Shown one piece after another: positions 3,289-57,725 of a DNA stretch of 64,000 nt. The position numbers and the translations under genes are program-made. Under the pieces are notes generated by a model that was not told where the DNA came from, did not search any database, and worked only from the letters and a program-made list of their open reading frames with translations. Origin of the DNA: Malus domestica (taxonomy: Eukaryota > Streptophyta > Magnoliopsida > Rosales > Rosaceae). The DNA is taken from NCBI RefSeq assembly GCF_042453785.1, contig NC_091665.1, positions 4,041,501-4,105,500 of the forward strand, in the 5' to 3' direction. Numbering within the stretch: position 1 is the first letter of the stretch; each line of letters opens with the position of its first letter.

Positions 3289-3701
3289 TTTTACCATTTT
3301 ATGTAGTATTTTTGTACAGTACTTGTAGCATATCAGATTATTCTAGTGTTGCGCCCAATGGCCTAATGTGCCTCCATATTACTCAATGTATTGTCTACGT
3401 ATTTGGCTCGAGTGACGTAACAAGTGAAAATGAAACCTTGCATCAGTCTTTGAAAGGTCTTGGGCCTCTCTACCCATTACAAATTTATTTCGGATTGTAT
3501 GCTCACATTCTAACGTGATACAACATTACCCGGCTCATGCCGTGCACCATTTAAAAGCCAAAAGGAAAATATTTGAAATGGATGAACTAATCAACCAGAA
3601 CAGCTTCTGGATATTGAAAATTTGAGGCATTATTGCATAACACAGCTAGCTAGGACTAATATAACGATTACTATTGTAATCGGTGCCTTGGGATCCACGT
3701 T
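3289..3701. other. Spacer, no gene seen
   Basis: AT-rich spacer between the TNL0 remnant and the 3' end of the minus-strand P450 gene. No open frame or repeat was recognised. Confidence 0.4.
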
Positions 3702-9850: not shown

Positions 9851-10285
9851 TCAATTTCCATGGCTGTGTATGCCTTCCACATCCGTTGTTAGTATAAAAC
9901 GCAGCATCTAAGTATCTTATACATTTTAATGTTGAAGTGTTCACAGTTGTACATAATGATTAAATTGGAAAAGATCTTGAAGTTCTTTCTACTTGTTCAG
10001 CTGGTAAAAAGAAGAGCACTTTCACAAAGGTTTAATGAATTTTTACTAAAGATATTTTTGTGAACATCATGTGAAAAATGTGACTAAGTTGTCAGCTTGT
10101 TTAGTCAATTAAAACATAAAAATTAACATATCGGGAAAAAATAAACCTCTACTCTGCATGTGTGAGACTGAAACTTTCGGAAGTCTAAACATCACTTCCT
10201 GGTTTAACACGTGGTTTAAGGGTGATTTTGGACTGCCAAAATCATCGCTTTTGCTATCGCATGTAAGTTGTAACTAGCACCTACC
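9851..10285. other. Spacer, nothing recognised
   Basis: AT-rich spacer between the PPR fragment and the 5S-containing insertion. It ends with the left copy of that insertion's 18-bp target duplication (10286-10303). Confidence 0.5.
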
Positions 10286-10303
10286 AAGATTTTAACTGCA
10301 GTA

Positions 10304-10580
10304 ACAACACAACAAAGCCTTTTCCCACCAAGTGGGGTCGGCTGTGGGGGATGCAACACGAGGACTTCCCAGGCGGTCACCCATCCTAGTACTATTCTCG
10401 CCCAAACTCGTTTAACTTCGGAGTTCGGATGGGATCCGGTGCATGTGAGCTGGTATGATCGCATCCCAAGGATTCGACGTAATCTAGGAGTGCCGGCTGT
10501 CGACTACCTGACGCCCTCCCCCTCCTCTTTTATCCGGGCTTGGGACCGGCAATGTAAGATAAACTTACACAGGCGGAGTT
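10304..10580 (-). mobile_element. Chimeric LINE (RTE-like)/5S rRNA retro-insertion
   Basis: A 277-bp minus-strand insertion flanked by identical 18-bp direct repeats, AAGATTTTAACTGCAGTA, at 10286-10303 and 10581-10598. Such long target duplications are typical of LINE-driven insertion. Read on the minus strand it has three parts. First is about 113 bp resembling plant RTE 5' leader sequence (AACTCCGCCTGTGTAAG..., GGTCCCAAGCCCGG). Next is a full-length 5S rRNA sequence. Last is about 44 bp matching the 3' end of the LINE at 56.2 kb (AGCCGACCCCACTT.GTG, AAAAGGCTTTGTTGT) with a TTG-type tail. Template switching of LINE reverse transcriptase onto 5S RNA and back would explain it. A small repeated family (SINE-like) is the alternative. 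Confidence 0.8.
10348..10467 (-). rRNA. 5S rRNA sequence (retro-inserted copy)
   Basis: 120 bp on the minus strand, starting GGGATGCGATCATACCAGC and ending GTGTTGCATCCC, colinear with plant 5S rRNA over its whole length. Pol III internal control elements are recognisable: a diverged box A (AGTTAAACGAGT), an intermediate element GATGGGTGACC and box C (AAGTCCTCGTGTTGC). A few substitutions are seen relative to the plant consensus I remember. Because it is embedded in a LINE-like insertion rather than a tandem 5S array, it is most likely a processed pseudogene, though it may keep promoter activity. Confidence 0.85.
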
Positions 10581-10598
10581 AAGATTTTAACTGCAGTA

Positions 10599-11441
10599 CA
10601 CTATCAAAATGTAAAGTGAAACCAAATAAGAAGAGACTATCATGGGCTGATATAACAACCAGGAGCAAGGGTAATATTGGGGGTTGAAGGTTGAATAGAG
10701 CATAAACTGCAGAAGCATAGTATGCAGTTTCTATCTTTCCAAATATAACGAACAGAACACCAAACATAGTATCAAAGATTGTGCGACTAAGAAAAAGCAT
10801 ACAAAGAAACAAGCTGAGACATGACACAGAATTTCCTACACCACCATATTTGAGCATCGCATAAGAGCACTCAAAGAACAGGAGATCTACGGATTCTTGA
10901 CATCCATGGAAAAGCACACCCATAAATAAGGAGAATTGACCAATTTCAATCTGTTGGCAAAAGCAACAACCAGATATACATGCAGCAAAAACAACAGCAG
11001 CCCCGAACCACACAAACAAGAAACAGAACTTAGCCATTGTTAGCAAATAAGACTCTTACTACCAAGTTTTTTCAGCTTTTGCATTTGTGTTTTTTTTTTT
11101 TTTTTTTCCAAAAATGAGATCTCCACATTGTTTTTCAAGATATTGCAGTGGTAGATTTCAATCTAACATCATAAACGATGCCCTGATAACCTGTCGTTCT
11201 TTATGTCACTTTTCTCAAGAAAATGTGTAATTTGAAGCTACCAATTACAGAGTCATCTGGAGCATTAAGAAGATGATAAAACCATTGTAAAAAGATGCTA
11301 TACTACAGATAAATACCTCTTCACAATGTTAGATAAATATTTGTCTTCCACCCTTGTCGTTGACTTGTACTGTCCGTCTATTGCATGCATCCCTCCATCC
11401 TGAACTTTATGAATTCGTTCCATACGATATCCCCCTTCACC
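10599..11441. other. 3' flank of the PPR gene, no separate gene
   Basis: Contains a poly-T run near 11091-11108. Just 3' of the PPR stop (about 11350-11440), MERIHKVQDGGM can still be read on the minus strand. This matches the C-terminal tail of the neighbouring PPR copy, so the ancestral frame was longer and the stop at 11442-11444 is derived. A hydrophobic minus-strand frame at 10579-11046 shows no family features. Confidence 0.5.
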
Positions 11442-12887
11442 TTACTCCAGAACAGCGAGGTCACCACCATCAATATAATTTTCAACCCTATCACACAAAT
11501 CTGTTGGAAGATGACCCCTTTCTCTCAATAACCCCAATATCTTATGTGCCACTTCCACATCTCCCTTCTCTTTCAAGTACTCAAAACATGCAGCCAAAGT
11601 TAAATTATGGAACTTCCACCCTGGTTGACATGCCATGTTTGCTGCCGTTTTCAATGATTCCACTGCCTCTGCCATCTGACCATTCGTACAGTATCCAGTA
11701 GCCAAAAGGGACCATGTTCTACAATCCTCCTTTCCTCCATCTGAAAGCTTGTTTGCCCATGATTTGGCCTTCTCCAACAGACCTTTCCCGCAGTAAGCAT
11801 TGATCAGCAAGTTTGGTATTTGGATGTCAAAGGATTGGTTCCCTGATTCCCATTCCTCCAGAATCTTCTCGGCACCATCAAAGTCATCCATCTTCATCAA
11901 CGAACTTAACATACACCGATACCCATTATTGTAGAATCCTACAATACTTTTGTACAATCCCCAAATTCGATAAACCTCATCCTTATTACCTATAGCAGCA
12001 TATGAAGTCATCAGGTATTCATATGCAATTTTCCTCGTTTTAATGTTGATGCGTTGCTCTGCTCTCCACAGCAATGTCGATGTCTTCTCCAATAGTCCAA
12101 CCTTCAAGAATGCTTCGGCTGCACTAACATAACCATGCCAGTCGACAGACACCAGAGGATCAGCTTCCATCTTCATCAAAAGCTTCTCCATTCGATTGAT
12201 ATCAGAAGTGGCGGCATAAGAAAATAACCGAATGTTCAACGTGTGAATGTTATAATCAACGCCTCTCTTTTCCATGTCTTTAACTAGAATATCTACCATT
12301 CCATGTTTACCCATTCGAGAATAAAGTGTCAGCATTGTATTATACGGCAATGGCCCTCTTATACCCGAATGCTTCATCTTTTCGAAAAGAGCCTCGGCCT
12401 TTTCCAAGCAATTATGCTCTGCATAGCAGGACAAGAGAGCACCACACACCTGAACCACTCTCAATAACTCCGGGATGCTATAGAAATACTTCTCCGCTTC
12501 TTCGAGGCCGCGGACCTTCGAAATCAACTCCAACCGAATTGCAATGTCTCCGGGATGCAGATCATGGTTCAGCTCATCGCTCATCCACTCTGAAATCTGC
12601 AGGGCTTGGGTGTAGCGACGGAATTTTCGGAGCTGCTTGATGAAATCTTGGAGTTCTGATCGCTCAACGTTTCTCCCTTCTTCCAGCCACTGATGGAGCA
12701 CCGGCAGAATGGAAACCCTAGGGTTTCCGGACCGCAAAATCCTACGGCGCAGAGGCACAAATGGGTGTGGTGCGGAGGCAAAGACGGAGGCGGAAGCGGT
12801 GGCCAGAGCCTCAGTTGAGTTGAATAGCGTGCCGAAAACCCTAGAAATGGCATTGCCACGCCATGGATTCGAACCAATAAGCTTCAT
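11442..12887 (-). CDS. P-class PPR protein, mitochondrial (At2g20710/At4g21705-like)
   Basis: Intronless gene of 481 codons. The ATG at 12885-12887 opens a basic, Ser/Arg-rich leader (MKLIGSNPWRGNAISRVF) expected to direct import into mitochondria. LHQWLEEGRNVERSELQ follows, the start block typical of this short P-class group. About ten degenerate 35-residue PPR motifs follow, for example CLEKAEALFEKMKHSGI, LPYNTMLTLYSRMGKHGM and NLLINAYCGKGLLEKAKSW. There is no E, DYW or SMR domain. PPR tracts bind organellar RNA, so a role in transcript stability or splicing is likely, but the RNA target cannot be read here. It is the only intact member of a three-copy same-strand cluster (fragment at 9.5 kb, broken copy at 15.1 kb). 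Confidence 0.9.
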   Translation of the reverse strand: MKLIGSNPWRGNAISRVFGTLFNSTEALATASASVFASAPHPFVPLRRRILRSGNPRVSILPVLHQWLEEGRNVERSELQDFIKQLRKFRRYTQALQISEWMSDELNHDLHPGDIAIRLELISKVRGLEEAEKYFYSIPELLRVVQVCGALLSCYAEHNCLEKAEALFEKMKHSGIRGPLPYNTMLTLYSRMGKHGMVDILVKDMEKRGVDYNIHTLNIRLFSYAATSDINRMEKLLMKMEADPLVSVDWHGYVSAAEAFLKVGLLEKTSTLLWRAEQRINIKTRKIAYEYLMTSYAAIGNKDEVYRIWGLYKSIVGFYNNGYRCMLSSLMKMDDFDGAEKILEEWESGNQSFDIQIPNLLINAYCGKGLLEKAKSWANKLSDGGKEDCRTWSLLATGYCTNGQMAEAVESLKTAANMACQPGWKFHNLTLAACFEYLKEKGDVEVAHKILGLLRERGHLPTDLCDRVENYIDGGDLAVLE

Positions 12888-13166
12888 CTTTCAACCCTAA
12901 TTAATTTCACAGAGAACCGTAGATAAATTTTGGGGTTCGACGCTTTTTTGTTCGAGGGGAGTGAACTTGAACGATAATTTAGGGTTTAGGGTTTTGAATT
13001 TCTTTCCATTTTCTTCTTTTAGTTCTGAAGGAATTTTCATTGGAGCCCAAAAAATGGAACAAAGTAAAGTGATCCATAATATATTGGCAGCCCATTCACA
13101 AAGAACACACGAGAGAAAATGCGCTTTTGATTTCTAATTTTGGCTTCTTTTTTTTTTTTTTTTTTT

Positions 13167-16970: not shown

Positions 16971-19872
16971 TTAGAGGAGTTGCTTTGAATTCGAAACATA
17001 TTAGTAAAAATTCAACGTCCTATTCATTAGAATATTAAATCACATGTAAAATTTAATAAAGTAAAAAGGAATGATTGAGCAAAAATATGATGAGGTGCAA
17101 AAGAAAAGAGTGAGAATGTGAGAATCACTACCAATCCGTAAAACACAAGCAAACCAGAATGATCGTAAAAATAATGTTGAACTATGCAAAACTTGTTAAT
17201 TTGGTCTTCCAATCTCAAAATCGCTTCATGCCATCCTCGTTTCTTGTACTACACATTCCGCTCCATTGTGCAGAAAAGTTGATAGATGGCCACTAATGTC
17301 AATTTTGCAAGTTTTTGCGTGAGCATTGAGATTTTAAAATGGCAGGACCACATCAACAATGATGTGCGTTTGAAAAAAAAAAAATTGGTAACATGTCACA
17401 CACCTTATCAATTTTGACAAAGTTCAGTACAATGCTGACATTAGAAACCACATTGAGAACGAGGATAATATTGAGGTCCCATTAGATTATGTGACAAAAT
17501 TGAGAAAGAAACTTGGACATAATATTTCAAAATTGATATTTTCAATTCTTGATATGATAAATTTCCAGGAAATTTTTTTTGAATGTGATGTTATTGCAGG
17601 TATATTGAATTTCCCCCTTTTTCCAACACTAATTAGTATTTATTACATATCTTTTCTTTTACTTACTAAATACGAGAAAGAAATTGATTTCTCATTTTTA
17701 AGCTCATTTTTGCCCTGGTAATACGATTTTCAGTTCACCAAAAATAAATAAATAAAATAAATAAAACCAGCCCCGGTGTCTTTAAAATTTGAGGGATTAA
17801 ATTGTTATTTTATGGGGCACTACTGTGAAAAATCCTTAATTGAACTCAACCCAAATCCAACTGGTAACAAACTGCATGGTTGGTTACCTAAACTGATGGA
17901 GCTAGGTTTAAATACTCTTAGCTCGCACCATGGCTTAAAAGGATTGAACTTGCAAAAATGTGCATGAGCATGATTATTTTTTGACACTGTGGTAAAATGT
18001 CACCAGATTTAAAGAATTAGTGCACCGTTCAAAATAACATAACAACATTCCTTTGGAAACAAAAATGAAGAATTTATTCGAAGGGGAAATGAGAGATATT
18101 TTGTTCCACCACAAAGAATTATTTTAATTTTGCATTTAAAAGAATTTGCATGATACATCAGTACAATCATTTTTAGGATTCCTAAGAGTGCATTTATCCT
18201 TTATGTATGAAAAATAAATAAATAAAAGAAAGTGCTAGAATCTACATCTACACATTGATTCTTTTTATTTTTCGTGATTTTTGTTGAACCGTATGCATCA
18301 AAAGGTGCATGTACGGTTTCTAAGGGATAAAACTTTATCTCAATCAACCGACTTTATCGAGAAAGATTACTTGAATCAACTTATGGTATATCTCATTATA
18401 GAGGATGAAATAAATAAAAAAAAATGAATTTTTGTTCAAGAAAGAAATCTTATTGGAACTGTCCATATCCAATTCATTCCTTCGGAACCATATCACATGC
18501 ATATTACATATTATCTAGTCTCTATTTATTGTGCAAAATTTTTGTCAATATAAGCGGCATTTTAACCACTAGAGCAATTCACCACTTGCTTTTTATTTTA
18601 AGTTATGCAAAGGATAGTGTGTGGAAAGAAATCAAATCTAGAACCTCGGTTGAGAGGAACATAACTAGTACTATATTATATACGATAACATAATGAGTGA
18701 CTAATCTACATATGATTTTTGTATATAATAATAGTAATAATTGTTTTCTTGTCTAGTAATTTGCGTACATTATACAATATACTAAGTTATATAATTGGAA
18801 TTTTGTTAATGAAATATAGAAGAAGGTACCCTTACCTAACTTGCATGTGATATTTCTCCTTCTCCATCATTATTAATGGACTTAGTACATATGATAACGA
18901 CACAAATCATTCCTTAGCCATCAACTAACACCAAATAATTTCTTTCTTTGACAAGAAGCACAATTATTGTTATCCTTTTATCACACAACAAATTGCCCTT
19001 ATTTTCTACCCTCCACTCATACATGGAGAAATTCTCAGGTCCGACAGTCAAGACTCTGCCAGCAATACAACCAAACCCAAAACCCTCCATCGGCGTTTAT
19101 GGCCCACCCGCCCCACCCTTCGATCCCACCGCCACTCTCGGAGGCAGTCCACCCGGGCGAAGAGAAGGATTGCTCCATAAATAAGGTGTTTTTGTTCCAT
19201 CCCGACCCGGGATATGACAGTGGCGGTATCCAAACGAATTATACGTCATAATGTAGTAGGCTTGGATACGGCAACCGTGGCACCCCATGTACAAGAAATG
19301 TTTTCTAAAGAGGCGACGAAATGAGATAAGACTCGCCACTTGTAAGCATATCTTGCAGTGATGACAACCTTAAAAAGTGGAAATGTGAAAAACCACAAAA
19401 AAAGAGAAGAAAATAAAATCAATAAACAATTTCAGAATCAACCATAACAGACGGAAGACAGATTGGAATTGCTTAGCAAAGGGGACCAACACAACATTTG
19501 GTGTTATAAACTTATAAGCAATGCATAGCCAACCGTTTAAACCCTGGAGGTTGCTTGTTCGATAAGTACAACGACGGTAAAAAGGTGATCCGGTAAGTTT
19601 TGGACTCTAAGATGATATTCTAATCCGCTAGAAATAATAACATAAGAGTAGATCTGTAGTTTTTAATTAACTGATACAGGGTACTGTGGGGTTCTGTGTG
19701 TACTGGTGAGCAGCAATCTTCACAGCCTTCAGTCCTGTACCACATACATATACATTACCTGTATGTATGTAGTCTGTACAAGAAGCTATCTGATGAGATT
19801 TACTACCCTCTTCTAATTCAAAAAAACATTATGAAATACCTAAACTGTGGTTAATGACTTCTTCGAGAGTTT
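16971..19872. other. Long AT-rich spacer
   Basis: No convincing gene on either strand. The only recognised item is the plastid-derived scrap near 18250-18405. A tRNA-like box A (GCTCTAGTGGTTA, minus strand near 18555-18575) hints at a decayed SINE. Short frames at 18948-19339 lie in a GC-richer patch but match no family I know. Confidence 0.4.
18252..18405 (+). pseudogene. clpP: Plastid DNA insertion (NUPT): clpP intron end plus exon 2 scrap
   Basis: GAACCGTATGCATC...GATGCATGTACGGTTT-type sequence at 18296-18319 is a group II intron domain V hairpin. It is followed, as in plastid clpP, by exon 2 sequence CAATCAACCGACTTTATCGA and GAAAGATTAC (coding NRLYRERL). The exon then jumps to GAATCAACTTA and TGGTATATCTCA.TATAGAGGATGA. 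Two short internal deletions relative to plastid clpP make it non-coding. Recognised from memory of plastid clpP, so a direct alignment should confirm. Confidence 0.7.
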
Positions 19873-26135: not shown

Positions 26136-26755
26136 TGTTTGTACCATACTTGACTAATCCCGAAACTACTGAGCACTGGTCAATGTTATACCGTCAAGGA
26201 CCCAGAAGAGTTTCCTTCCAACCAGGAGGCCAATCACAACACGACACATGTCGACATCAGAAGCCAATCATAACACGACAAGTGATAACATCAGAAGCCA
26301 ATCACAACACGACACGTGTCAATGTCAGAATGAAACTAGAAACTCTCTTCTATAAATAGAGATCATTCTCTCACAATATTTCCTAATGTCATTTGTACTA
26401 AATCATTCACTTGTACTCATTAAAGGAGAGCTTGAACCTATGTACTTGTGTAAACCCTTCACAATTAATGAGAACTCCTCTACTTCGTGGACGTAGCCAA
26501 TATGGGTGAACCACGTACATCTTGTGTTTGTTTCCCTATCTCTATCCATTTACATACTTATCCATACTAGTGACTGGAGCAATCTAGCGAAGGTCACAAA
26601 CTTAACACTTTCTATTATACCAAAGTCCCCTCCGATTTTATGCATCAACATTTGGCGCCGTATGTGGGAACAACACTTATTCTCAGTCTCTTCAGCTTTG
26701 CTAAGTTGGTTTCCACCATTCGTACACTCTCTTTTGACCAGGCATCCTTCTCCAA
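26136..26755 (+). mobile_element. LTR plus leader of a truncated Tat-type retrotransposon
   Basis: A 515-bp LTR (26136-26650) starting TGTTTGTACC and ending GCATCAACA, same family as the E1 and E2 LTRs. It has a TATA box (TATAAATA near 26353) and three CCAAT/ACGTGTC-type modules. A primer-binding site, TGGCGCCGTATGTGGGA, begins two bases after the LTR. The leader runs on to about 26755, just short of where gag would start. There it is cut and joined to a TIR gene fragment on the other strand. No gag, pol or second LTR is present here. Confidence 0.85.
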
Positions 26756-31440: not shown

Positions 31441-31532
31441 ACCTCCATTTATCTCGTCTTCTCTCATTTTTCTTTCTTGATTGGTTTAGAGATTGAGAAA
31501 AGAAAAAAGAAGTGAAAAACTGCTTGTCATTA

Positions 31533-34500
31533 ATGACCTGCTTGGAGGAGTTGACCGTTGGAAGCGCCTCCGCATCTGCTCCGTCAGCTTGTCGATGGAA
31601 ATACGATGTGTTTTTGAGTTTCAGGGGCGAAGATACCCGCAAGGGTTTCACAGACCATCTCTACGATAAATTGAAGTGGCGTGCAATCAAAACTTTCAGG
31701 GACGACCCAGAACTTCAAAGAGGAACTAGTATTCATCCTGAGCTTCTTATGGCAATTCAACAATCACGATTTGCAATTGTTGTTATTTCGCCAAACTATG
31801 CTGCTTCCACATGGTGCTTGGTTGAACTGACAAAGATTCTTCAGTCCATGGACGAGAGTGAGACCATCCTGCCAGTTTTTTACGATGTTGATCCCTCGGA
31901 TGTCCGGCATCAAAAGGGGAGTTTCGCCGAGGCCTTCTTTAAACATGAGGAGAAGTTCAGGGAAGACATAGAGAAGGTGCAAGGTTGGAGAGATGCTTTA
32001 ACAAAAGTGGCTAATCTTGCAGGGTGGACGTCAAAGGATTACAGGTACGAAACGGAACTTATCAAAGAAATTGTGGAAGTAGTGTGGAACAAAGTTCATC
32101 CTACATTGACGCTGATAGATTCTTCGGAGATGTTAGTCGGAATTGAATTTAGATTAAAGGAAATATGTTTCCTTTTGGATATAGCGGAAAATCATGTTTG
32201 CTTTATAGGGATATGGGGGATGGGAGGGATTGGTAAGACAACCCTTGCTAGACTTGTTTATGAAAAATTCTCTCATAACTTTGAAGTTAGCATCTTTCTT
32301 GCTAACGTCAGAGAAATTTATGCAAAACATGGTTTAGTACATCTACAAAAGCAACTGCTTTCACAAATCTTGAAAGAGAAGGACGTACAAGTTTGGGATG
32401 TTTATAGCGGGATTACAATGGCAAAGAGTTTTTTGTGTAACAAAAAAGCTCTTCTCATTCTTGATGATGTAGACCAATTAAACCAACTAGAAAAGTTGGT
32501 TGGAGAAAAATACTGGTTCGGTTTAGGGAGCAGAATCATCGTGACCACTAGAGATAGACATTTGCTGGTCGCACATGGCATAGAGAAACAATATGAAGTT
32601 GTAGAATTAGATGAGGATGAAGCTTATCAGCTCTTTAATTGGAAAGCATTCAAAGAAGATGAGCCTCAGGAAAAATATTTGGAGCTCTCTAAGCAGTTCG
32701 TTAAGTATGCTAGAGGTCTTCCATTAGCTCTTAGAACTTTGGGGTCTTTTTTGTATAAAAGAGATCCATATGCATGGAGTAGTGCATTGAACAAACTGAA
32801 GCAAACTCCTAATAGAACAGTTTTTGAAATGCTAAAAATAAGTTATGATGGACTAGATGAGATGGAGAAGAGAATTTTCCTTGATATTGCTTGTTTCCAT
32901 AAGTGGTCTGACAAAGAGCGAGTAATTGAAGTACTAGACAGTTGTGGATTTTGCGCTCGTATTGTGATAGATGTTCTTGTTGAGAAGTCTCTCTTAACTA
33001 TTTCTGGCAAGAGTGTCTGTATGCACGATTTGATACAAGAAATGGCATGGGAGATTGTTCGAGGTGAGTCTTTTGAAGAGCCCGGTGCGCGAAGTCGTTT
33101 GTGGCTTCGTGATGACATATTTCATGTGCTCACAAAGAATACGGTAAGAAATTATTCGTAAATATCAAGTTTGGATAGCAGTATAAAACCTTAATGTTAC
33201 ACAGTACTATGAGACTTGTGGAATTAACTTTTCCTTCATTCCTGTTTATTAGGGAAAAAAAGCAATTGAAGGCATTGTCTTACGCTTGCGTGAATTTGAA
33301 GAGGCACACTGGAATCCTGAAGCCTTCTCTAAGATGTGTAATTTAAAGTTGCTTGACATTGATAATTTGAGACTTTCTGTTGGCCCCAAATATCTTCCTA
33401 ATGCCTTGAGATTTCTCAAATGGAGTTGGTATCCCTCCAAATTTCTGCCGCCAGGTTTTCAACCAAATGAACTGACTGAACTTAGTTTGCCCCATAGCAA
33501 AATTGATTACCTTTGGAATGGAATAAAGGTAAATATATGCATAGAATAGTATTCATTCAGCAATTTTTTCATCTTTTTGGTTAGAATACATTGCAAGGCT
33601 TTTTGGACGGTGATCTGATTTTCTAACTTTTTCATGTTTTGTGCAGTACTTCAGAAAGTTGAAATCTATCGATCTTAGCTACTCGCAGAACTTGACAAGG
33701 ACTCCAGATTTCACAGGTCTTCAAAATCTTGAGAGGCTAGTTCTTGAAGGCTGCACAAATTTAGTTGAGATTCATCCATCCATTGCATCTCTCAAATGTC
33801 TCAGAATTTTGAATTTTAGAAACTGCAAAAGTATTAAGATTCTCCCAAATGAAGTAAAGATGGAAACTCTTGAAGTATTTGATCTTTCTGGCTGCTCAAA
33901 AGTTAAGAAGATTCCAGAATTCGGTGGACAGATGAAAAATGTATCAAAGCTTTATTTAGGTGGGACTGCTGTTGAGGAGCTGCCTTTATCATTTAAAGGT
34001 TTGATTGAGAGTTTAGAAGAACTTGATTTAACGGGAATTTCTATAAGAGAGCCACTTTCCTCGATCGGTCCTATGAAAAATCTCGACCTATCATCCTTTC
34101 ATGGATGTAATGGTCCACCACCTCAGCCACGGTTCTCATTCCTCCCTTCTGGCTTATTCCCACGGAACAGTCTTAGCCCTGTGAATCTGGTGTTAGCTTC
34201 TTTAAAAGATTTCCGTTCTTTAAAGAAACTAGATCTAAGTGACTGCAACCTTTGTGACGGAGCCCTTCCCGAAGATATTGGCTGTTTGTCCTCTTTAAAA
34301 GAATTAAATCTTGGAGGAAACAATTTTGTTAGCCTTCCCACAAGCATTGGTTGTCTTTCTAAGCTTAGTTTTTTCAACTTGAACAACTGCAAAAGGCTTC
34401 AACAATTACCAGACCTTCCGTTAAACAACAGAATATATTTAAAAACGGACAATTGTACTTCCTTACAAATGTTGCCAGGTCCACCAGAGCTGTGCAGATT

Positions 34501-36721: not shown

Positions 36722-37233
36722 TGTTTGTACCATACTTGACCAATCCCGAAACTACCGAGCACCGGCCAACGCTATACTGTCAAGGACCCAGAAGAGTTCC
36801 CCTCCGACCAGGAGGCCAATCACTACTCGACATGTGTCAAGATTAGAAGCCAATCAGAGCGCAGCACGTGTCGACATCAAGAACCAATCATAACATGACA
36901 CATGTCAATGTGACAAAGCTACAAGTTTTTCTATAAATAGGGGTCATTCCCCCACAATATTGCCTAATGCCATTTGTGTTAAATCATTCACAAGAACTCA
37001 CTAAATTGAGAGTTTGATCCTTTGTACTTGTGTAAGCCCTTCACTACTAATAAGAACTCCTCTACTCCGTGGACGTAGCCAATCTGGGTGAACCACGTAC
37101 ATCCTGTGTTTGCTTCTCTGTCTCTATTCATTTACGTACTTATCCTCACTAGTGACCGAAGCAACCAAGCGAAGGTCACAAAACCTGACACTTTCTGTTG
37201 TACCAAAGTCTTCGCTGATTTTGTGCATCAACA
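36722..37233 (+). repeat. E1 5' LTR
   Basis: 512 bp. TATA box TATAAATA at 36932-36939. Upstream of it, three ~30-bp modules each combine CCAATCA with an ACATGTGTC/ACGTGTC-type E- or G-box. The end GTGCATCAACA is followed by the primer-binding site. Confidence 0.95.
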
Positions 37234-37340
37234 TTTGGCGCCGTCTGTGGGAAACGACACTTATTCCTACTCTCTTCAGCTGTGTCAAGCTGGTTTCTAT
37301 CATTCGTACACTTTCTTTTGATCAGGCATCCCTCTCCAGC

Positions 37341-40300
37341 ATGGGAAGCGAAGGAAGCCACAGCACACAGAATGACACCCCCCTTGCACATAGTGCGAAA
37401 CAACGAAAGAAGGAAGGAAAACGAGTTCTTCTTCAAGCTAAAGTCGATGAGTTGGAAGCTCAGAACAACAAGATAGCAATGAGGAATGAGGTCCTCCAGG
37501 AGCAATATGAGAAGCTCTTCGAGACACTTCACGAAGCTAGGCAAGCTCAGACACGCGAGCTTGTTGCCCCCGTGGAAGTCAACCATCAACTGGGTGCCCT
37601 CCAACATGGAGGGTCACATGCATTCGACATAGATATCCCTGATAGGGAACAAATTACCCCTCGATTTGATAATCAACATGAGGCTTCTCTTAACCCAGTT
37701 GCTTCGACCCGAACCATGAGAAGCGGAGGGAGACACCTCTTTGCTGAAGGGGCAGAAGGATCGAAAGCCGTCTTTCGCGATTGTCGGGATTTCCTGAAGC
37801 AACGTCGAGAGAATTCCATCCATATAAGCTCAAAGATCAATGACCCAAGGATTTCTGAGAGACTCGGTCCCCTGCCACGGCCCGAGCCGGCCACCAACTT
37901 GGGGAAGGTGCAACAAGTCCTAGAGAGACATGAGGGTACAGGGGACTCAGAGGTGTTCCGACAGACATACCCTGGAAGCCAGTACAGCGAGTCCAGGGAA
38001 AAATCACATGCCCTTGATCAAACCTTCCTAATTCCAAGAGGAGATGGAGATTTACGAAAGAAAGCTCCAGTGGCACATAACTCCGCTCAGGACCCCCTTG
38101 TCCTACAACTTCTTGAGGAAGTAAACAAGTTGAAGGTTGAACGTCAGGCTGAAATACCTGACTGGAACCAACCCAGGCCTGGCCCTCTTACAAGAAGGAT
38201 CCTCAACACCCCCCTTCAAGCAAAGACAAAGCAGAAGCTTGGCTTGCAACTTTATACTGGAAAAGAGGACCCGATTGAGCACCTTAACCTCTTTGAGTCC
38301 ACCATGGCATACCGGATGCACACCGACGAAGAGCGATGTCTTCTCTTCCCCTCCACCCTCTCTGGCGGAGCTCTAAATTGGTATTGTCGTCTTACACCTG
38401 AGACGGTAGACTCATTTGAGGAATTGAGGAAACTATTTGTTTCCCAACACATTTTCCAAACCGATCGCTTGCACTCTGCAGATGACCTGTACACTATCCG
38501 CCAGAAGCCAGACGAGTCATTACGTATGTATGCTGGCCGCTTCAGCCATGAATACTCCCGGTGTGCCGAGGCAGACGACAAGACTGCCCTCAAAGCCTTC
38601 ACGGCAGGCCTACGTGATTGTTTCTTTAAATACATGATCAATGCCAATACTTGGAAGACTTACTCTGAGGTGATGGCGCAGGCTTATAACCATGCCTCCG
38701 CCGAGGCAAAGACATATCAGGAGAAACCCCCTACAACCATCCTTTATCAACAAGTGGGAGGTGAAAGCCAGACTCACCTAAATGAGAAGACCTCGACTTT
38801 CCAAACAGCAGTGGCACCTTCCCATGCCTTGCATAATGCTTCGCCGAATCAACAGACATATCAATTTCAAGGCAAGAGGAAGGATTTCCATCCTCACCAC
38901 TCTCCTTTCAGTAAAAAGAGTAAGGGACACTATCCCGATAACCAAGGGTATCGCCACAATAACGCTCGCCCCCAGGCAGTCAATGCAGTGGGTCAAACCC
39001 GCGTCAAGACACCCCCTACCCCAAGGTATGAGACATACATGCCCTTGAATGCCACATGCGCGGCCATTTACCCCAGCATAGCACACATGATACCAAAGCC
39101 AAAGCCGAGGCACCCAGATTACACGCCCCCGAATAACGCGGGCATGTTTTGTTGCTACCATGAGCATAACGACCACGATAGCGAGAAATGTATCATCCTC
39201 CGTGATCGTATTGAAGCTTTGGCACGAGAAGGAAAAATTAATCAATTCCTCCTTCACCCTCAAAGGGATAACCGTAACCAACGCCAGGTGAATGTCATAT
39301 ATTCCATAAGCGGCGGCACACCCATATCTGAATCTTCCAATAGGGCCATGAAAAACAGTGAACGAATTCTGAGGCCTGGTCACCAAGTGTTTCACGTGGA
39401 AGACATCAGGGGAGGGAAGTATCAAAAGCCTAACTGGGATCCGATATGTTTCTACCCTGAGGAAGAAAGAGGCATCATCTACCCTCATAACGACCCATTG
39501 ATCGTGGAGGCTCACATAGCCAACTTTGATGTTCGACGAATCCTCGTAGACACAGGGGCTTCGGTCAATATCATGTTTGCCGAAGCTTTCAGGGCACTCA
39601 GTGTAGCTGAACACTTGCTCGATCGCTCGATTTCTCCTCTGATAAGCTTCTCCGGTGATATCGTGCAACCCTTAGGGAGCATACATTTACCCTTTACTAT
39701 TGGTACAGGCCCTTACACGGCTACCATTACCACTAACTTCCTAGTGGTTGACTGCCCAACGGCATACAATGTCATCTTTGGGCGCACAGGCATCAATGAT
39801 CTCAAGGCTATGGTATCCACGCATATGCTGTTGATGAAATTTCCAACCCCCCATGGCAACGGCTACATCAGAGGAGATCAGCTTACTGCACGATCATGTT
39901 ACAACACTTCAGTTAAGCAACAACACTTGCCCGGACCCAAGGAAACCCTGTCTGTACATGACCAAGTCACAAAGACCAGCCTAGATGCAGCGAACTTGGA
40001 TCTTCCTGATAGCAACAATCAACCCGATGATCCTCGAGATGACTCTTTCACCCAGCAAGCCCAACCTGCTGAAGAGTTGGAGAAGGTACCTATCTCAAGA
40101 GATTATCCAGATCGCATGGTGAAGATTGGCACCACATTGTCACCACCCTTTCGGTTAGCATTGATATCTTTTTTGAAAGAGAACACTGAAGTCTTCGCCT
40201 GGTCATACGAGGACATGCCAGGCATCTCTCCCGATGTCATCTGTCATCGTTTGAGTATTGACCCCAAGATCAAGCCGGTGAGACAGAAGCGAAGATCTTA

Positions 40301-43300
40301 TGACGCTGAACGATACGAGGCAATGAAAGCAGAAGTTGAAAAACTCAAAGGCATAGGCTTTGTCCGCGAAGTCAATTACCCGACATGGGTAGCAAATGTG
40401 GTCCTTGTTAGGAAAAATCCGACCAAAGAAAGTCTTTCGCTTCAAAATGTCTTGTGGAGGATGTGTGTTGACTACACCGACCTAAACAAAGGGTGTCCGA
40501 AAGATAGTTTCCCTCTTCCTCTTATTGACAGGCTTATAGACTCTACGGCAGGGTGTGAGCTCTTGAGCTTTATGGACGCTTATTCAGGATACAACCAAAT
40601 CCTCATGAACCCCTCAGACCAAGAACACACGGCCTTCACTACTGACAGGGGACTATATTGCTATAAAGTCATGCCTTTCGGCCTAAAGAATGCAGGAGCA
40701 ACTTATCAGAGACTGGTCAATTCAATGTTCGCCGAACAAATTGGGAAGAACATGGAAGTTTACGTTGATGATATGCTAGTCAAAAGCAAACATGCTGACC
40801 AACACATCACCAACCTATCTGAAACTTTCACCATTCTAAAGAGGTATCGAATGAGGTTGAACCCCAACAAATGTGCCTTCGGCGTGGGCTCTGGCAAATT
40901 CTTAGGCTTCATGATTAGCCAACGAGGCATTGAAGCTAACCCTGAAAAGATCAAAGCAATCCTCGACATGAAAGAGCCAATAACTTCAAAAGACATCCAA
41001 AGCCTTACTGGCAAGGTGGCAGCCTTAACCAGATTCATCTCTAAGGCCACAGACAGATGTGCTCCTTTCTTCAAAGCACTCAAGGGAAATAAGAAGTACA
41101 TTACATGGACGGAGGAATGTGCCAAGGCATTCAGGAACCTCAAAGAGTACATGAGTAAAGCCCCTCTGCTCTCCAAACCAGAAGTTGGTGACACTCTCAT
41201 CATCTATCTATCGGTTTCGGTTTCAGCAGTCAGTTCTGTTCTTATTCGAATGGACAGTGGTGTCGAACGGCCCGTCTACTACGCTAGCAAGGCCCTACAA
41301 GATGCGGAGACACGATACTCCAACATTGAGAAATTAGCTCTAGCATTGGTCATGTCTGCTCGGAAACTTCGCCCTTATTTCCAAGCACACGCCATCATCG
41401 TGCTTACCAATCACCCTCTTTGACAGATACTCCAGAGTCCTGACACGTCTGGACGAATGATCAAATGGGCGATAGCATTGGGTGAGTTTGACATCTCCTA
41501 CCAACCAAAACCAGCCGAAAAAGGTCAAGCAGTAGCAGATTTCATCGCCGACTTCACATATCCTGTTGACATTGCTTCTACACCTGAAGCAGTAGCTTCA
41601 TTACCATCAGAAGCTCAGAAGATAGAACCAACAACCCCAGCATGGAGTCTGTATGTTGATGGCTCATCCAACCAACAGGGCTGTGGAGCGGGACTAGTCT
41701 TGACTACGCCCGACAAAGTAGCAATGGAGTATGCTCTTCGTTTCAAATTCAAGGCATCAAACAATGAGGCCGAGTATGAAGCCCTTCTAGCAGGATTACG
41801 TTTGGCCAAACACCTCGGGGTTAAACAAATTGATATTTTCAGTGACTCCCAATTAGTGGTCAACCAGGTTACCAACAACTTTGATGCTAAGGACAGCTCC
41901 ATGGCAGCATATCTTGCGCAAACACAACTTTTGCTCAAACACTTCCACTACCAGATCACCCAAGTTCCTCGAGCGGCAAACAGTCATGCAGACGCCCTGG
42001 CTCGCCTCGCCTCAGCTGTGGAAGACAAGATTGGAAGAAAAATTCATGTCGAACTGTTGGCAACACCAAGCACCATGGCCGCAGAAGTATGCAACGTACA
42101 ACAGGGGGATAGTTGGATCACCCCGATCTATAATTTCCTTGCTCATGGCACCCTCCCAAATGATAAAGTCCAGGCTAAGCAAATTCGATACAAGTCTACC
42201 CGCTACCTGATCATCAATGATCAACTCTATAAGCGAGGTTTTAGCCTGCCATACTTAAGGTGTCTTACGCCTGCCGAGGTGGAAATCGTCCTTCGGGAAA
42301 TACATGAGGGAGTCTGTGGAGATCATGCTGGATCTCGGTCCCTAGCACACAAGACTTTTCGCCAAGGATATTACTGGCCAACACTCCACCAGGATGCCAT
42401 CAAAGTATCCCGCTCATGTGACAAATGTCAACGATATGCGACTATTCCTCATTCCCCTCCAGAGCCTCTTACTCCTATGATCAGCCCTTGGCCCTTCGCC
42501 CAGTGGGGACTTGATTTGATCGGCCCAATGCCGGCAGGGAAGGGCAAAGTCTGTTACGCAGTCGTTGCAGTGGACTACTTCACAAAGTGGGCCGAAGTAG
42601 AACCCTTGGCAACCATTACTGAGGCAAAGATAGAAGACTTCGTGTGGAAGAACATCCTTTGTAGATTCGGCATTCCCAATGCGATAGTCACTGACAATGG
42701 GCGACAGTTTGACAACAAGAAGTTCAGGTTGTTCTGCTCTAAGTTCAACATCAACTTATGCTTTGCCTCTCCAGCTCATCCCCAGTCTAATGGACAAGTT
42801 GAGGCCATCAACAAAATAATCAAGCGCACTTTGAAAACCAGCTTGGACAAAGCTAAAGGCTGTTGGCCAGAATTTGTACCCCAAGTTCTTTGGTCATATC
42901 GCACTTCATATCGGACTTCAACAGGAGAAACTCCATTCTCACTTGCCTTTGGCACAGAGGCGGTTGTCCCTGTTGAGCTCGAGCAAGCAACATTCCGAGT
43001 CCAGAACTACATTCAAAGTGAAAATGACAAACAACTCACCCTCAACTTGGATTTAGTCGAGGAACACAGAAACCAAGCTCACTTGAGGAATGTCGCCTAC
43101 AAGCAGCGCATCTCCAACTATTATGACTCTAGGGTCAAGCCTCGTTCTTTCAAAATAGGAGACTGGGTCTTAAAGAAAAGATTACTCTGCGACAGAGTCC
43201 CGAGTGAAGGCACACTTAGTCCAAACTGGGATGGACCGTATGAAGTCATTGGCATCAGTTGCCCTGGCTCTTACACACTTAGAAGCTCCGATGGCAAGAC

Positions 43301-43349
43301 CCTTGGCCATCCATGGAACGCTGATCACTTGAAGTACTACTACAAATAG
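37341..43349 (+). CDS. E1 gag-pol polyprotein with one internal stop
   Basis: ATG at 37341; one frame to the TAG at 43347-43349, interrupted only by TGA at 41421-41423. Order: gag (capsid-like block with [15 protein letters not shown] and LSGGALNWY), an atypical Cys/His knuckle ([14 protein letters not shown]), aspartic protease with DTGAS (Asp at residue 737), reverse transcriptase with YVDD at 1141-1144, and RNase H ([15 protein letters not shown]). The stop falls where relatives have LRQILQ, so CGA to TGA is likely. After the stop come a second, archaeal-type RNase H ([25 protein letters not shown]) and integrase with an HHCC zinc site ([18 protein letters not shown]) and a D-D-E core ([29 protein letters not shown]). 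This copy cannot make integrase without readthrough. Confidence 0.95.
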
Positions 43350-51381: not shown

Positions 51382-51893
51382 TGTTTGTACCATACTTGAC
51401 CAATCCCGAAACTACCGAGCACCGGCCAACGCTATACTGTCAAGGACCCAGAAGAGTTCCCCTCCGACCAGGAGGCCAATCACTACTCGACATGTGTCAA
51501 GATTAGAAGCCAATCAGAGCGCAGCACGTGTCGACATCAAGAACCAATCATAACATGACACATGTCAATGTGACAAAGCTACAAGTTTTTCTATAAATAG
51601 GGGTCATTCCCCCACAATATTGCCTAATGCCATTTGTGTTAAATCATTCACAAGAACTCACTAAATTGAGAGCTTGATCCTTTGTACTTGTGTAAGCCCT
51701 TCACTACTAATAAGAACTCCTCTACTCCGTGGACGTAGCCAATCTGGGTGAACCACGTACATCCTGTGTTTGCTTCTCTGTCTCTATTCATTTACGTACT
51801 TATCCTCACTAGTGACCGAAGCAACCAAGCGAAGGTCACAAAACCTGACACTTTCTGTTGTACCAAAGTCTTCGCTGATTTTGTGCATCAACA
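51382..51893 (+). repeat. E1 3' LTR
   Basis: 512 bp, same as the 5' LTR but for one base. TATA box at 51592-51599. It points into the downstream NBS-LRR half of TNL2; its U5 is open in the TNL2 frame but without an ATG, so the first in-frame Met is near 52034 in the NBS. Confidence 0.95.
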
Positions 51894-56157: not shown

Positions 56158-56846
56158 CATTCCAACAACAACAACAACAACAAAGCCTTTTCTCACTAAG
56201 TGGGGTCGGCTATGTGAATCTTAGAACGTCATTGCGCTCGGTTTTGTGTCATGTCCTCCGTTAGATTCAAGTACTCTAAGTCTTTTCTTAAGGTTTCTTC
56301 CAAAGTTTTCTTAGGTCTTCCTCTACCCCTTCGGCCCTGAACCTCTGTCCCGTAGTCACATCTTCGAACTGGAGCGTCAGTAGGCCTTCTTTGGACATGT
56401 CCAACCCACTCATTCCTAATCTTATCCTTTCTCGTGAGCCCACACCTCCAACGAATCATCCTCATCTCCGCTACACCCATTTTGTGTACATGTTGATGCT
56501 TCACTGCCCAACATTCTGTGCCATACAGCATCGCCGACCTTATTGCCGTCCTATAAAAATTTCCCTTGAGCTTCAGTGGCATACGACGGTCACATAACAC
56601 GCTGGATGCACTCTTCCACTTCATCCATCCCGCTTGTATTCCATATATTCTGTCTTTGATCGGCTTAGGCGAAGACCTTTAGATTCCAACACTTCTCTCC
56701 AAAGGTTAAGTTTCGCATTTACCCCTTCCTGAGTTTCATCTATCAACCCTATATTGTTTGCGTAAAGCATACACCAAGGAATAACATCTTGAATATGTCC
56801 TGTTAACTCATCTATTACCAATGCAAAAAGGTAAGGACTTAAGGAT
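56158..56846 (-). mobile_element. RTE-type LINE, 3' part, truncated by E2
   Basis: Minus-strand end of a non-LTR retrotransposon. Readable pieces: [40 protein letters not shown] and SRSKTEY of the reverse transcriptase; then MLYGTECWAVKHQHV, MIRWRCGLTRKDKI and GRGRPKKTLEETL of the C-terminal region. The catalytic FADD/YADD box reads YANN, so it is inactive. There is a small frame break near 56622. It ends AGCCGACCCCACTTAGTGAG, then AAAAGGCTTTG(TTG)n, the same tail as the 5S chimera at 10.3 kb. Its 5' part is cut off by the LTR at 56847 and may lie beyond the window. Confidence 0.85.
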
Positions 56847-57725
56847 TGTTGATGCACAAAATCAGTGAGGACTTTGGTACAACAAAAAGTATTAAGTTTG
56901 TGACCTTCGCTAGATTGCTCCGGTCATTAGTGTGGATAAGTATGTAAAAGGATAGAGACAAGAGAGCAAACACAAGATGTACGTTGTTCACCCAGATTGG
57001 CTACGTCCACGAAGTAGAGGAGTTCTCATTAATTGTGAAAGGTTTACATAAGTACATAGGTTCAAGCTCTCCTTTAGTGGGTACAAGTGAATGATTTAGT
57101 ACAAATGACATTAGGAAATATTTTGGGAGAATGATCTCTTTTTATAGAAGAGAGTTTCTAGCCTTGTTCTGACATTGACACGTATCGTGTTGTGATTGGC
57201 TTCCGATATTGACACGTGTCGCGCTATGATTGGCTTCTGATGTCGACACGTGTCGCTCTGTGATTGGCCTCCTGGTTGGAGGGGAAGCTCCTCGGTTGGG
57301 GACTTGCAAGATCCAAGCCGATGAGTAATCATGAAACTTCTAAGTACCGAAGTGTGGTATCGTCTTCACTTGCCTTATCTGTCTTATAGGTAGATGTGGC
57401 ATCTTCTCTGGATGTACTCTTCCTCCGTCCAGGGGTGGTATCTTTAACTGGTGGAGATGCACAAGGTAATGTATCAATTTCACTTGAAACTTACTTGTAG
57501 TTTCAGGCTTGGTCAAGCGCAATACAAACCATGTAGTAGGAGTCCCCCAAGTTGTCGAGCTAGGGGATCTGCTGAAATAGGTGACAGACAAGGTAAGCAA
57601 TCAGAGCTCCAAGCAATCAGTCCAAGATCAAAAGTTTGATTTCGAGTTCTAGCTGATTGTTCTCATTCTCCTTATCTTGTAGGCAGCATGAAGGATAAAG
57701 AGAAGAAAAGGAGAATAGATGACAT

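Follow-up and report, generated by a model that had tools for sequence, protein, structure and literature searches.

How does a complete 5S rRNA come to lie within a retroposon, with LINE sequence on both sides of it, and which part of such a composite accounts for its spread? These questions are raised by a 277-bp element at 10304-10580 of the window, that is, of the whole 64,000-nucleotide stretch of DNA analysed here (C5:4041501-4105500 of the source genome). A preliminary description had read it as an RTE composite with an internal 5S, implying two template switches or an evolved family, and had suggested that the 5S might serve as its own Pol III promoter. The junctions described below support the composite and the two switches that it implies.

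Architecture of the element

The element lies on the minus strand with its 5' end at 10580 and is bounded by an 18-bp target site duplication (TSD), AAGATTTTAACTGCAGTA. The copies of this duplication at 10286-10303, adjoining the 3' end, and at 10581-10598, adjoining the 5' end, are identical at 18/18 positions, in agreement with the preliminary description, and no direct repeat besides the TSD was found in 10200-10700. Read along the minus strand from 10580, the element consists of a 113-nt leader (10468-10580), a single extra G that is common to the family (10467), a 5S rRNA (10348-10466) and a last segment running to 10304 (10304-10347), which joins a few bases of 5S trailer (CCAC) to an RTE 3' tail with a CCCAC/GTGGG hairpin and a TTGTGTTGT end. 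All parts share one orientation, as had been noted. The 5S matches model positions 1-120 of RF00001 (108.4 bits, E 7e-23) and comprises positions 1-119 by comparison with the host array; the copy is complete, as first described, and its length is 119 nt, not 120 bp.

Both outer segments are those of an RTE LINE. The leader is 97.3% identical to the first 113 bases of a 3428-bp RTE copy of the source genome (L042), which bears out the earlier reading of it as LINE 5'-leader-like. In L042 the leader, a 5' UTR, is followed at base 114 by the ATG; this copy has the same first base and the same tail as the element and no clear target duplication (6 bp). A sister copy (L041) carries behind its leader an 810-codon frame with Exo_endo_phos (E 2.6e-8) and RVT_1 (E 1.4e-28) domains. 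The element holds LINE bases 1-113 and 3388-3428, and the approximately 3.27 kb between them are absent. As originally observed, its tail (10347-10304) also matches a LINE within the window, at 56171-56214, with 90.9% identity over 44 columns and both in minus orientation. This second LINE (56171-56846, minus strand) is a 5'-truncated, internally gapped RTE copy, identified as such by three blocks that match L042 bases 3428-3191, 3128-2893 and 2611-2398 at 91-95%; its C-terminal ORF piece (56229-56678) has no Pfam match. Two outcomes that had been named as telling against the composite did not materialize: both flanks match RTE ends, and the 5S junctions match no array spacer beyond about 5 nt of the 5S trailer.

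The element is not an ordinary 5S rDNA unit, which would sit with its spacer in a tandem array. Its 5S is the only one in the window, and the host array, mostly of 323-bp units, is found on another contig (C4). Against a host consensus built from 15 units of that array, the family consensus differs only at position 40, which is C, A or T in family copies and A in the host, suggesting that the founding 5S was probably the host's own and identical to it. The window copy differs from the host 5S at positions 17, 40, 56, 72 and 93, of which 56 and 72 fall within what we take to be the limits of the internal control region. A comparison with an angiosperm 5S had given 10 differences, including a paired A-U to U-A swap; the swap was considered as a compensatory stem change indicative of structural constraint, and this argument was dropped because the host array carries the same pair. 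Separately, dispersed single 5S copies with trailer, near-identical to the host, occur outside the C4 array (L045, L046, L047 and L049) and are candidate Cassandra elements or 5S retrocopies.

A PPR-type ORF (11445-12890; Pfam PPR) lies on the same strand about 0.9 kb upstream of the element, which makes read-through transcription into it possible. The remainder of the window contains a TIR-NB-ARC resistance-type gene at 31497-33158 (Pfam TIR and NB-ARC), with other ORFs that look alike, and long frames at 37092-43349 that resemble, in our own reading of the ORFs, a Gypsy-type gag-pol polyprotein. The start of the ORF at 37092 repeats the start of another at 51752, which continues as a TNL-like gene. 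A repeat of about 111 bp recurs at 26490-26600, 37072-37183, 51732-51843 and 56897-57007, as well as at bases 2726-2836 of L042; the RTE copies L039-L041 are without it. At 18175-18357, models of a group II intron (E 0.0009) and of the plastid clpP intron (E 0.017) match below threshold, possibly marking organelle DNA in the nucleus.

A dispersed family in the source genome

The source assembly (651 Mb in 19 contigs) was searched with the element, and copies were counted and junctions compared, as the preliminary description had proposed. The DNA search gave 73 matches, with the best 38 of 2110 candidates scored. Because such searches score only the best candidates, the copies counted are a minimum, and short 5'-truncated ones may escape notice. 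With 3 mismatches allowed, a 30-base pattern spanning the leader/5S junction occurs at 16 genome places, and its reversed control at none. In all, at least 21 dispersed places (L005-L022, L048, L098 and L163; the window copy is L005/L095) carry at least one of the two diagnostic junctions and form one family, so the second of the early suggestions, an evolved composite and not a one-off, also holds. The leader/5S junction is spanned in 19 of the 21, 16 of them by pattern and L008, L015 and L048 by alignment. The 5'-truncated L022 and L098 were assigned by their 5S/tail junction, which reads CCCAC in the main family, while L016, L048 and L163 are without an intact tail joint. By its own junction L023 falls outside the family, among the separate fusions considered below.

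Clear TSDs of 15-22 bp, with 0 or 1 mismatch, accompany 10 of 20 copies tested (L005, L008-L011, L018, L020-L022 and L098), and some of these copies are 5'-truncated, as LINE copies often are; at the other ten no clear TSD was present (best 5-11 bp). In their 5S part the copies differ from the family consensus at between 4/118 and 14/119 sites. Derived changes are shared in groups, for instance T207G in six copies and A131G in seven, which suggests that the family went through several rounds of copying; the window copy is 99% identical to L006 over 249 bp. Counted over 20 copies (L023 included, L098 and L163 left out), substitutions from the consensus number 41/758 in the ribozyme, 60/775 in the linker, 154/2337 in the 5S and 43/602 in the tail. 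Divergence in the 5S is similar to that in the other parts, and no sequence constraint on it is seen in the family. Four copies (L014, L017, L019 and L048) end in (AGA)n or (GAA)n and not in (TTGTG)n, which might mean that they are moved through a second type of tail. L015 and L016 (C7:2314004-2314730) are neighbors on one strand, some 255 bp from each other.

SIDEs without a 5S are present in the same genome, three of 206-212 bp and one of 296 bp. LINE bases 1-135 are joined to 3356 onward in L035, 1-136 to 3354 onward in L036, 1-145 to 3361 onward in L038 and 1-216 to 3348 onward in L037, with TSDs of 21 bp at L035, 20 bp at L036 and 17 bp at L038. These joints represent at least three different deletions; L035 and L036, whose joints are one or two bases apart, may share one. 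As a further observation, 26 places carry a 113-bp RTE leader that is identical throughout, a sign that the RTE was active very recently.

A twister motif at the 5' border

The preliminary description did not mention that the leader starts with a twister ribozyme motif. Positions 10585-10516 match the full RF03160 model (1-68) at 65.1 bits (E 1.1e-14, or 1.8e-12 for the whole window), a near-threshold match that falls 2.1 bits short of the Rfam gathering score of 67.2. The motif is of type P1, and its element part spans 10516-10580 on the minus strand. The 22-base conserved core, the U-A step and the loop segments GCC, GAGGG and UAA are intact; one P1 and one P2 pair are non-standard, the inner P2 pair being lost (G53A in the element). 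Twisters cut at the U-A step adjoining P1 (PMC6154101). Placed at RF03160 model positions 5^6, the predicted cut falls between 10581 and 10580 and coincides to the base with the border between TSD and element, positions 10585-10581 of the 5' TSD copy supplying the 5' strand of P1 together with the U that precedes the cut. The predicted cleavage would make the precise 5' end of the element.

How widely is the motif kept? In the source genome 15 of 62 scored places exceed the RF03160 gathering score, at 67.5-70.8 bits. A match with E<=0.001 was found in six of 11 loci with 5S that were scanned and in all nine SIDE or LINE-leader loci, and none of these 15 matches reaches the gathering score (best 63). 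No match was found in the other five 5S loci scanned (L008, L010, L013, L014 and L017), and T at -1 is confined to the window copy among the seven 5S copies beginning at base 1, the six others having A; many family copies may therefore not be cut. In public contigs the exact core 22-mer occurs in three viral and one bacterial, and Rfam twisters overlap three of the four loci, two of type P1 and one of type P5, with none in L002; the first DNA pattern used gave 0 matches in viral contigs. Three other leads were followed and set aside. A T at -1 in 40/40 of the top twister loci is a biased signal, because the covariance model with which they were picked rewards T. An HDV-like ribozyme was sought in the leader without an Rfam match, the twister being found instead, and the leader shows no excess folding stability (z -0.07) under a fold model without pseudoknots.

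The parent LINE ends at the same base. Among the best 40 of 1440 candidates in a search with the RTE leader, all 99-100% identical, 38 further places were compared upstream, and in 38/38 the shared sequence stops at AACTCCGCC, beyond which the 40 upstream bases are unrelated (<=23/40 alike); since the query began at base 1, this locates the end of the element and not the frequency of truncated copies. The base at -1 in these 38 leaders is T in 18, A in nine, C in seven and G in four. By eye, an ATTTT-like run recurs at about -30 to -25 in the upstream flanks of L125-L162, near the likely start of the TSD, and perhaps reflects an endonuclease preference.

Origin of the composite

From the observed architecture, family, 5'-end positions and RTE source of leader and tail, we consider it likely, with a probability of about 0.75, that the element belongs to a non-autonomous, RTE-dependent SIDE family in which a 5S replaces the deleted coding region, which arose by template jumping and which spread as a twister-trimmed RNA. 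At its origin, the RTE reverse transcriptase would have copied the RTE 3' tail during target-primed reverse transcription, jumped to a 5S transcript still bearing some of its 3' trailer, and copied this to its first base. A second jump, to base 113 of an RTE RNA, would have allowed the 5' UTR to be copied to its end.

Further fusions bear on this scheme. In four more places (L023, L106, L113 and L116) the step from 5S to RTE tail falls elsewhere, after approximately CCCCACC in L023, CCCACCTT in L106, CCCACCTCGTT in L113 and CCCACCTCTTT in L116. In the one host array unit compared the 5S trailer reads CCCCACCTCTTTTTT, to which the GTT of L113 is not an exact fit. All five 5S-tail junctions, that of the main family included, lie within the short 5S trailer and 0/5 beyond its T-run, which is what a 5S transcript as template would give. 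This pattern suggests that the RTE made repeated template jumps onto 5S transcripts. Clear target duplications are present at L106 and L116 and absent at L113 and L023. All four additional fusions are truncated inside the 5S, upstream of which any leader would lie, and no second copy of the L106 type was found among the best 40 of 1084 candidates.

DNA recombination or repair might instead have joined a piece of a 5S gene into an RTE copy, with the later spread unchanged. The authors who described R2 SIDEs think this origin likelier for them than template jumps (PMC3414825). In the present case we regard it as unlikely: the 5S starts at its base 1 and its trailer junctions stop short of the T-run, both of which fit an RNA template better, and several separate 5S fusions exist.

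Mode of spread

Following its origin by template jumping, the family would have spread from a longer transcript, made by read-through or from RTE-like signals. The twister would cut this transcript at U^A to leave an RNA starting AACUCCGCC, and the RTE enzyme would recognise the tail and insert a copy, so that full-length insertions would begin at the cut base. The 5S would mainly be a passenger or structural cargo, not the promoter driving spread. A more active part for it can be imagined, in which the folded 5S domain serves as a docking module and not as a promoter, for example by binding 5S partners such as TFIIIA or ribosomal protein L5 that bring the RNA to the ribosomes making RTE protein. 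This role is improbable; if true, the repeated 5S-tail fusions would amount to repeated trials of the same trick.

The familiar alternative, which we find rather more doubtful, is a 5S-derived SINE of the SINE3 kind, transcribed by Pol III from the internal 5S promoter and with a leader that is an accidental 5' extension. Several features would suit such an element: the 5S is kept complete (RF00001 is above its gathering score in 11/11 family loci scanned, with 12 matches), its consensus departs from the host at a single site, no TTTT occurs within the element on the minus strand, the four other 5S-tail fusions have no visible leader (all being truncated inside the 5S), and L022 starts a few bases from 5S +1. 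Transcription from the 5S promoter, however, would begin at 5S +1 and leave the leader out. In the usable main-family set (n=20, L163 left out and L023 moved out), seven copies start at base 1, from which 5S +1 is 114 bases further on; none starts at 113-117, the stretch around 5S +1. This count places L022 at 111, where its TSD ends; its BLAST match starts at 117, which would make it the single copy near 5S +1. Moreover, the four other fusions include L106, which has no close second copy among the best 40 of 1084 candidates, and the 5S shows a divergence similar to that of the linker. Spread driven by Pol III from the 5S is thus not supported, and the family probably spread by way of a self-cutting RNA, to judge from where its copies begin.

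Uniform 5' ends alone cannot separate a cut site from a start site. It could accordingly be argued that an RTE Pol II promoter starting at the A of AACTCC sets the 5' ends and that the twister is used later or never, a view favored by six of the seven base-1 5S copies, in which A and not U precedes the cut. We hold this to be just as doubtful as Pol III spread, as the cut predicted from the ribozyme consensus agrees with the border to the exact nucleotide and RTE leaders conserve the ribozyme core well. It is very improbable that the 5S was derived from the transcript of a Cassandra TRIM and not from a 5S gene. Malus Cassandra does have a 5S-like stretch of >100 nt (PMC10853983), but the trailer matches the 3' flank of a host array unit and the founder 5S fits the host 5S. 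Finally, a one-off chimera or assembly artefact, which the odd make-up alone might bring to mind, is refuted by 21 dispersed places with shared junctions and derived changes, 10 of them with clear TSDs of their own.

Relation to known elements

By anatomy the element is SIDE-like, with LINE 5' and 3' ends and no coding region between them and with the TSDs, 5' truncations and shared tail of LINE-mediated insertion. With its cleavage predicted, its most fitting provisional label is that of a twister-led RTE SIDE with an internal 5S. It has the tail in common with its partner LINE, as a SINE3 element would. Since its 5S begins at element base 115, behind an RTE leader and not as a 5' head, the element is not a SINE3.

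SIDEs were defined for the R2 elements of Drosophila (PMC3414825). The R2 and R2/R1 SIDEs resemble the element in combining a 5' self-cleaving ribozyme, here a predicted one, with a 3' LINE end in a non-coding unit moved by a LINE. They differ in having an HDV-like ribozyme, a fixed rDNA target and no 5S. Template jumps of R2 to U12 and tRNA are described as well, and a subfamily may go back to one of them; in those cases the jumped RNAs lie at the R2 5' end (PMC3414825). The nearest precedent for internal sequence from an rRNA locus is the SIDE of D. immigrans, which contains a stretch 75% identical to rDNA ITS-1 (PMC3414825). As for the ribozyme, truncated but competent twisters are stated to be conserved at the 5' ends of RTE retrotransposons, in work then in preparation, and to be proposed for 5'-end processing, as here (PMC7761336). 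The passage in question concerns the RTE itself, with no SIDE or 5S in it, whereas the element described here is a SIDE with a 5S. No later full report of twisters at RTE 5' ends was found in the literature searched, and the available portions of PMC10085705 and PMC8216279 contain no treatment of RTE.

Among RTE derivatives, mammalian Bov-A2, RTESINE1, MAR4 and RTE1-N1_LA join an RTE 5' end to an RTE tail, as does the element, but lack a 5S and, as far as the source states, a ribozyme; the same source gives plant RTEs as having TTG ends (PMC3747384). Ped-1 of the springhare combines a 5S promoter with a BovB tail (PMC3747384) and so shares with the element a 5S and the tail of an RTE-clade LINE. 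In Ped-1 and SINE3, however, the 5S is head and promoter, and the text available states no LINE leader or ribozyme before it. Cassandra TRIMs are likewise plant retroelements with a 5S, but they are LTR elements that carry it inside their LTRs (PMC10853983, PMC10886601); an examination of the direct repeats in 10200-10700 revealed no pair of LTRs enclosing the 5S. SINE3, Cassandra, plant twisters and plant SINEs are covered by PMC10886601, PMC10853983, PMC10226581 and PMC8825457. Six sequence words had no match in paper text. A 5S within a ribozyme-led RTE derivative was not encountered in the literature searched, a body of work whose scope excludes most subscription papers and preprints. Within that scope, twisters at RTE 5' ends and ribozyme-led SIDEs are already in print, and no SIDE family was found that has a complete 5S inside it.

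Taken together, the element joins three things that have been known apart, namely the 5' twister of RTEs, internally deleted elements led by a ribozyme, and the jumping of LINEs onto small RNAs, and it suggests that the three together can found a spreading family in a plant. The habit of calling the 5S of a retroposon its promoter is open to question in such a case, since the 5' ends here point elsewhere. With several 5S junctions in one genome, 5S transcripts offer a possible natural assay for RTE template jumping.
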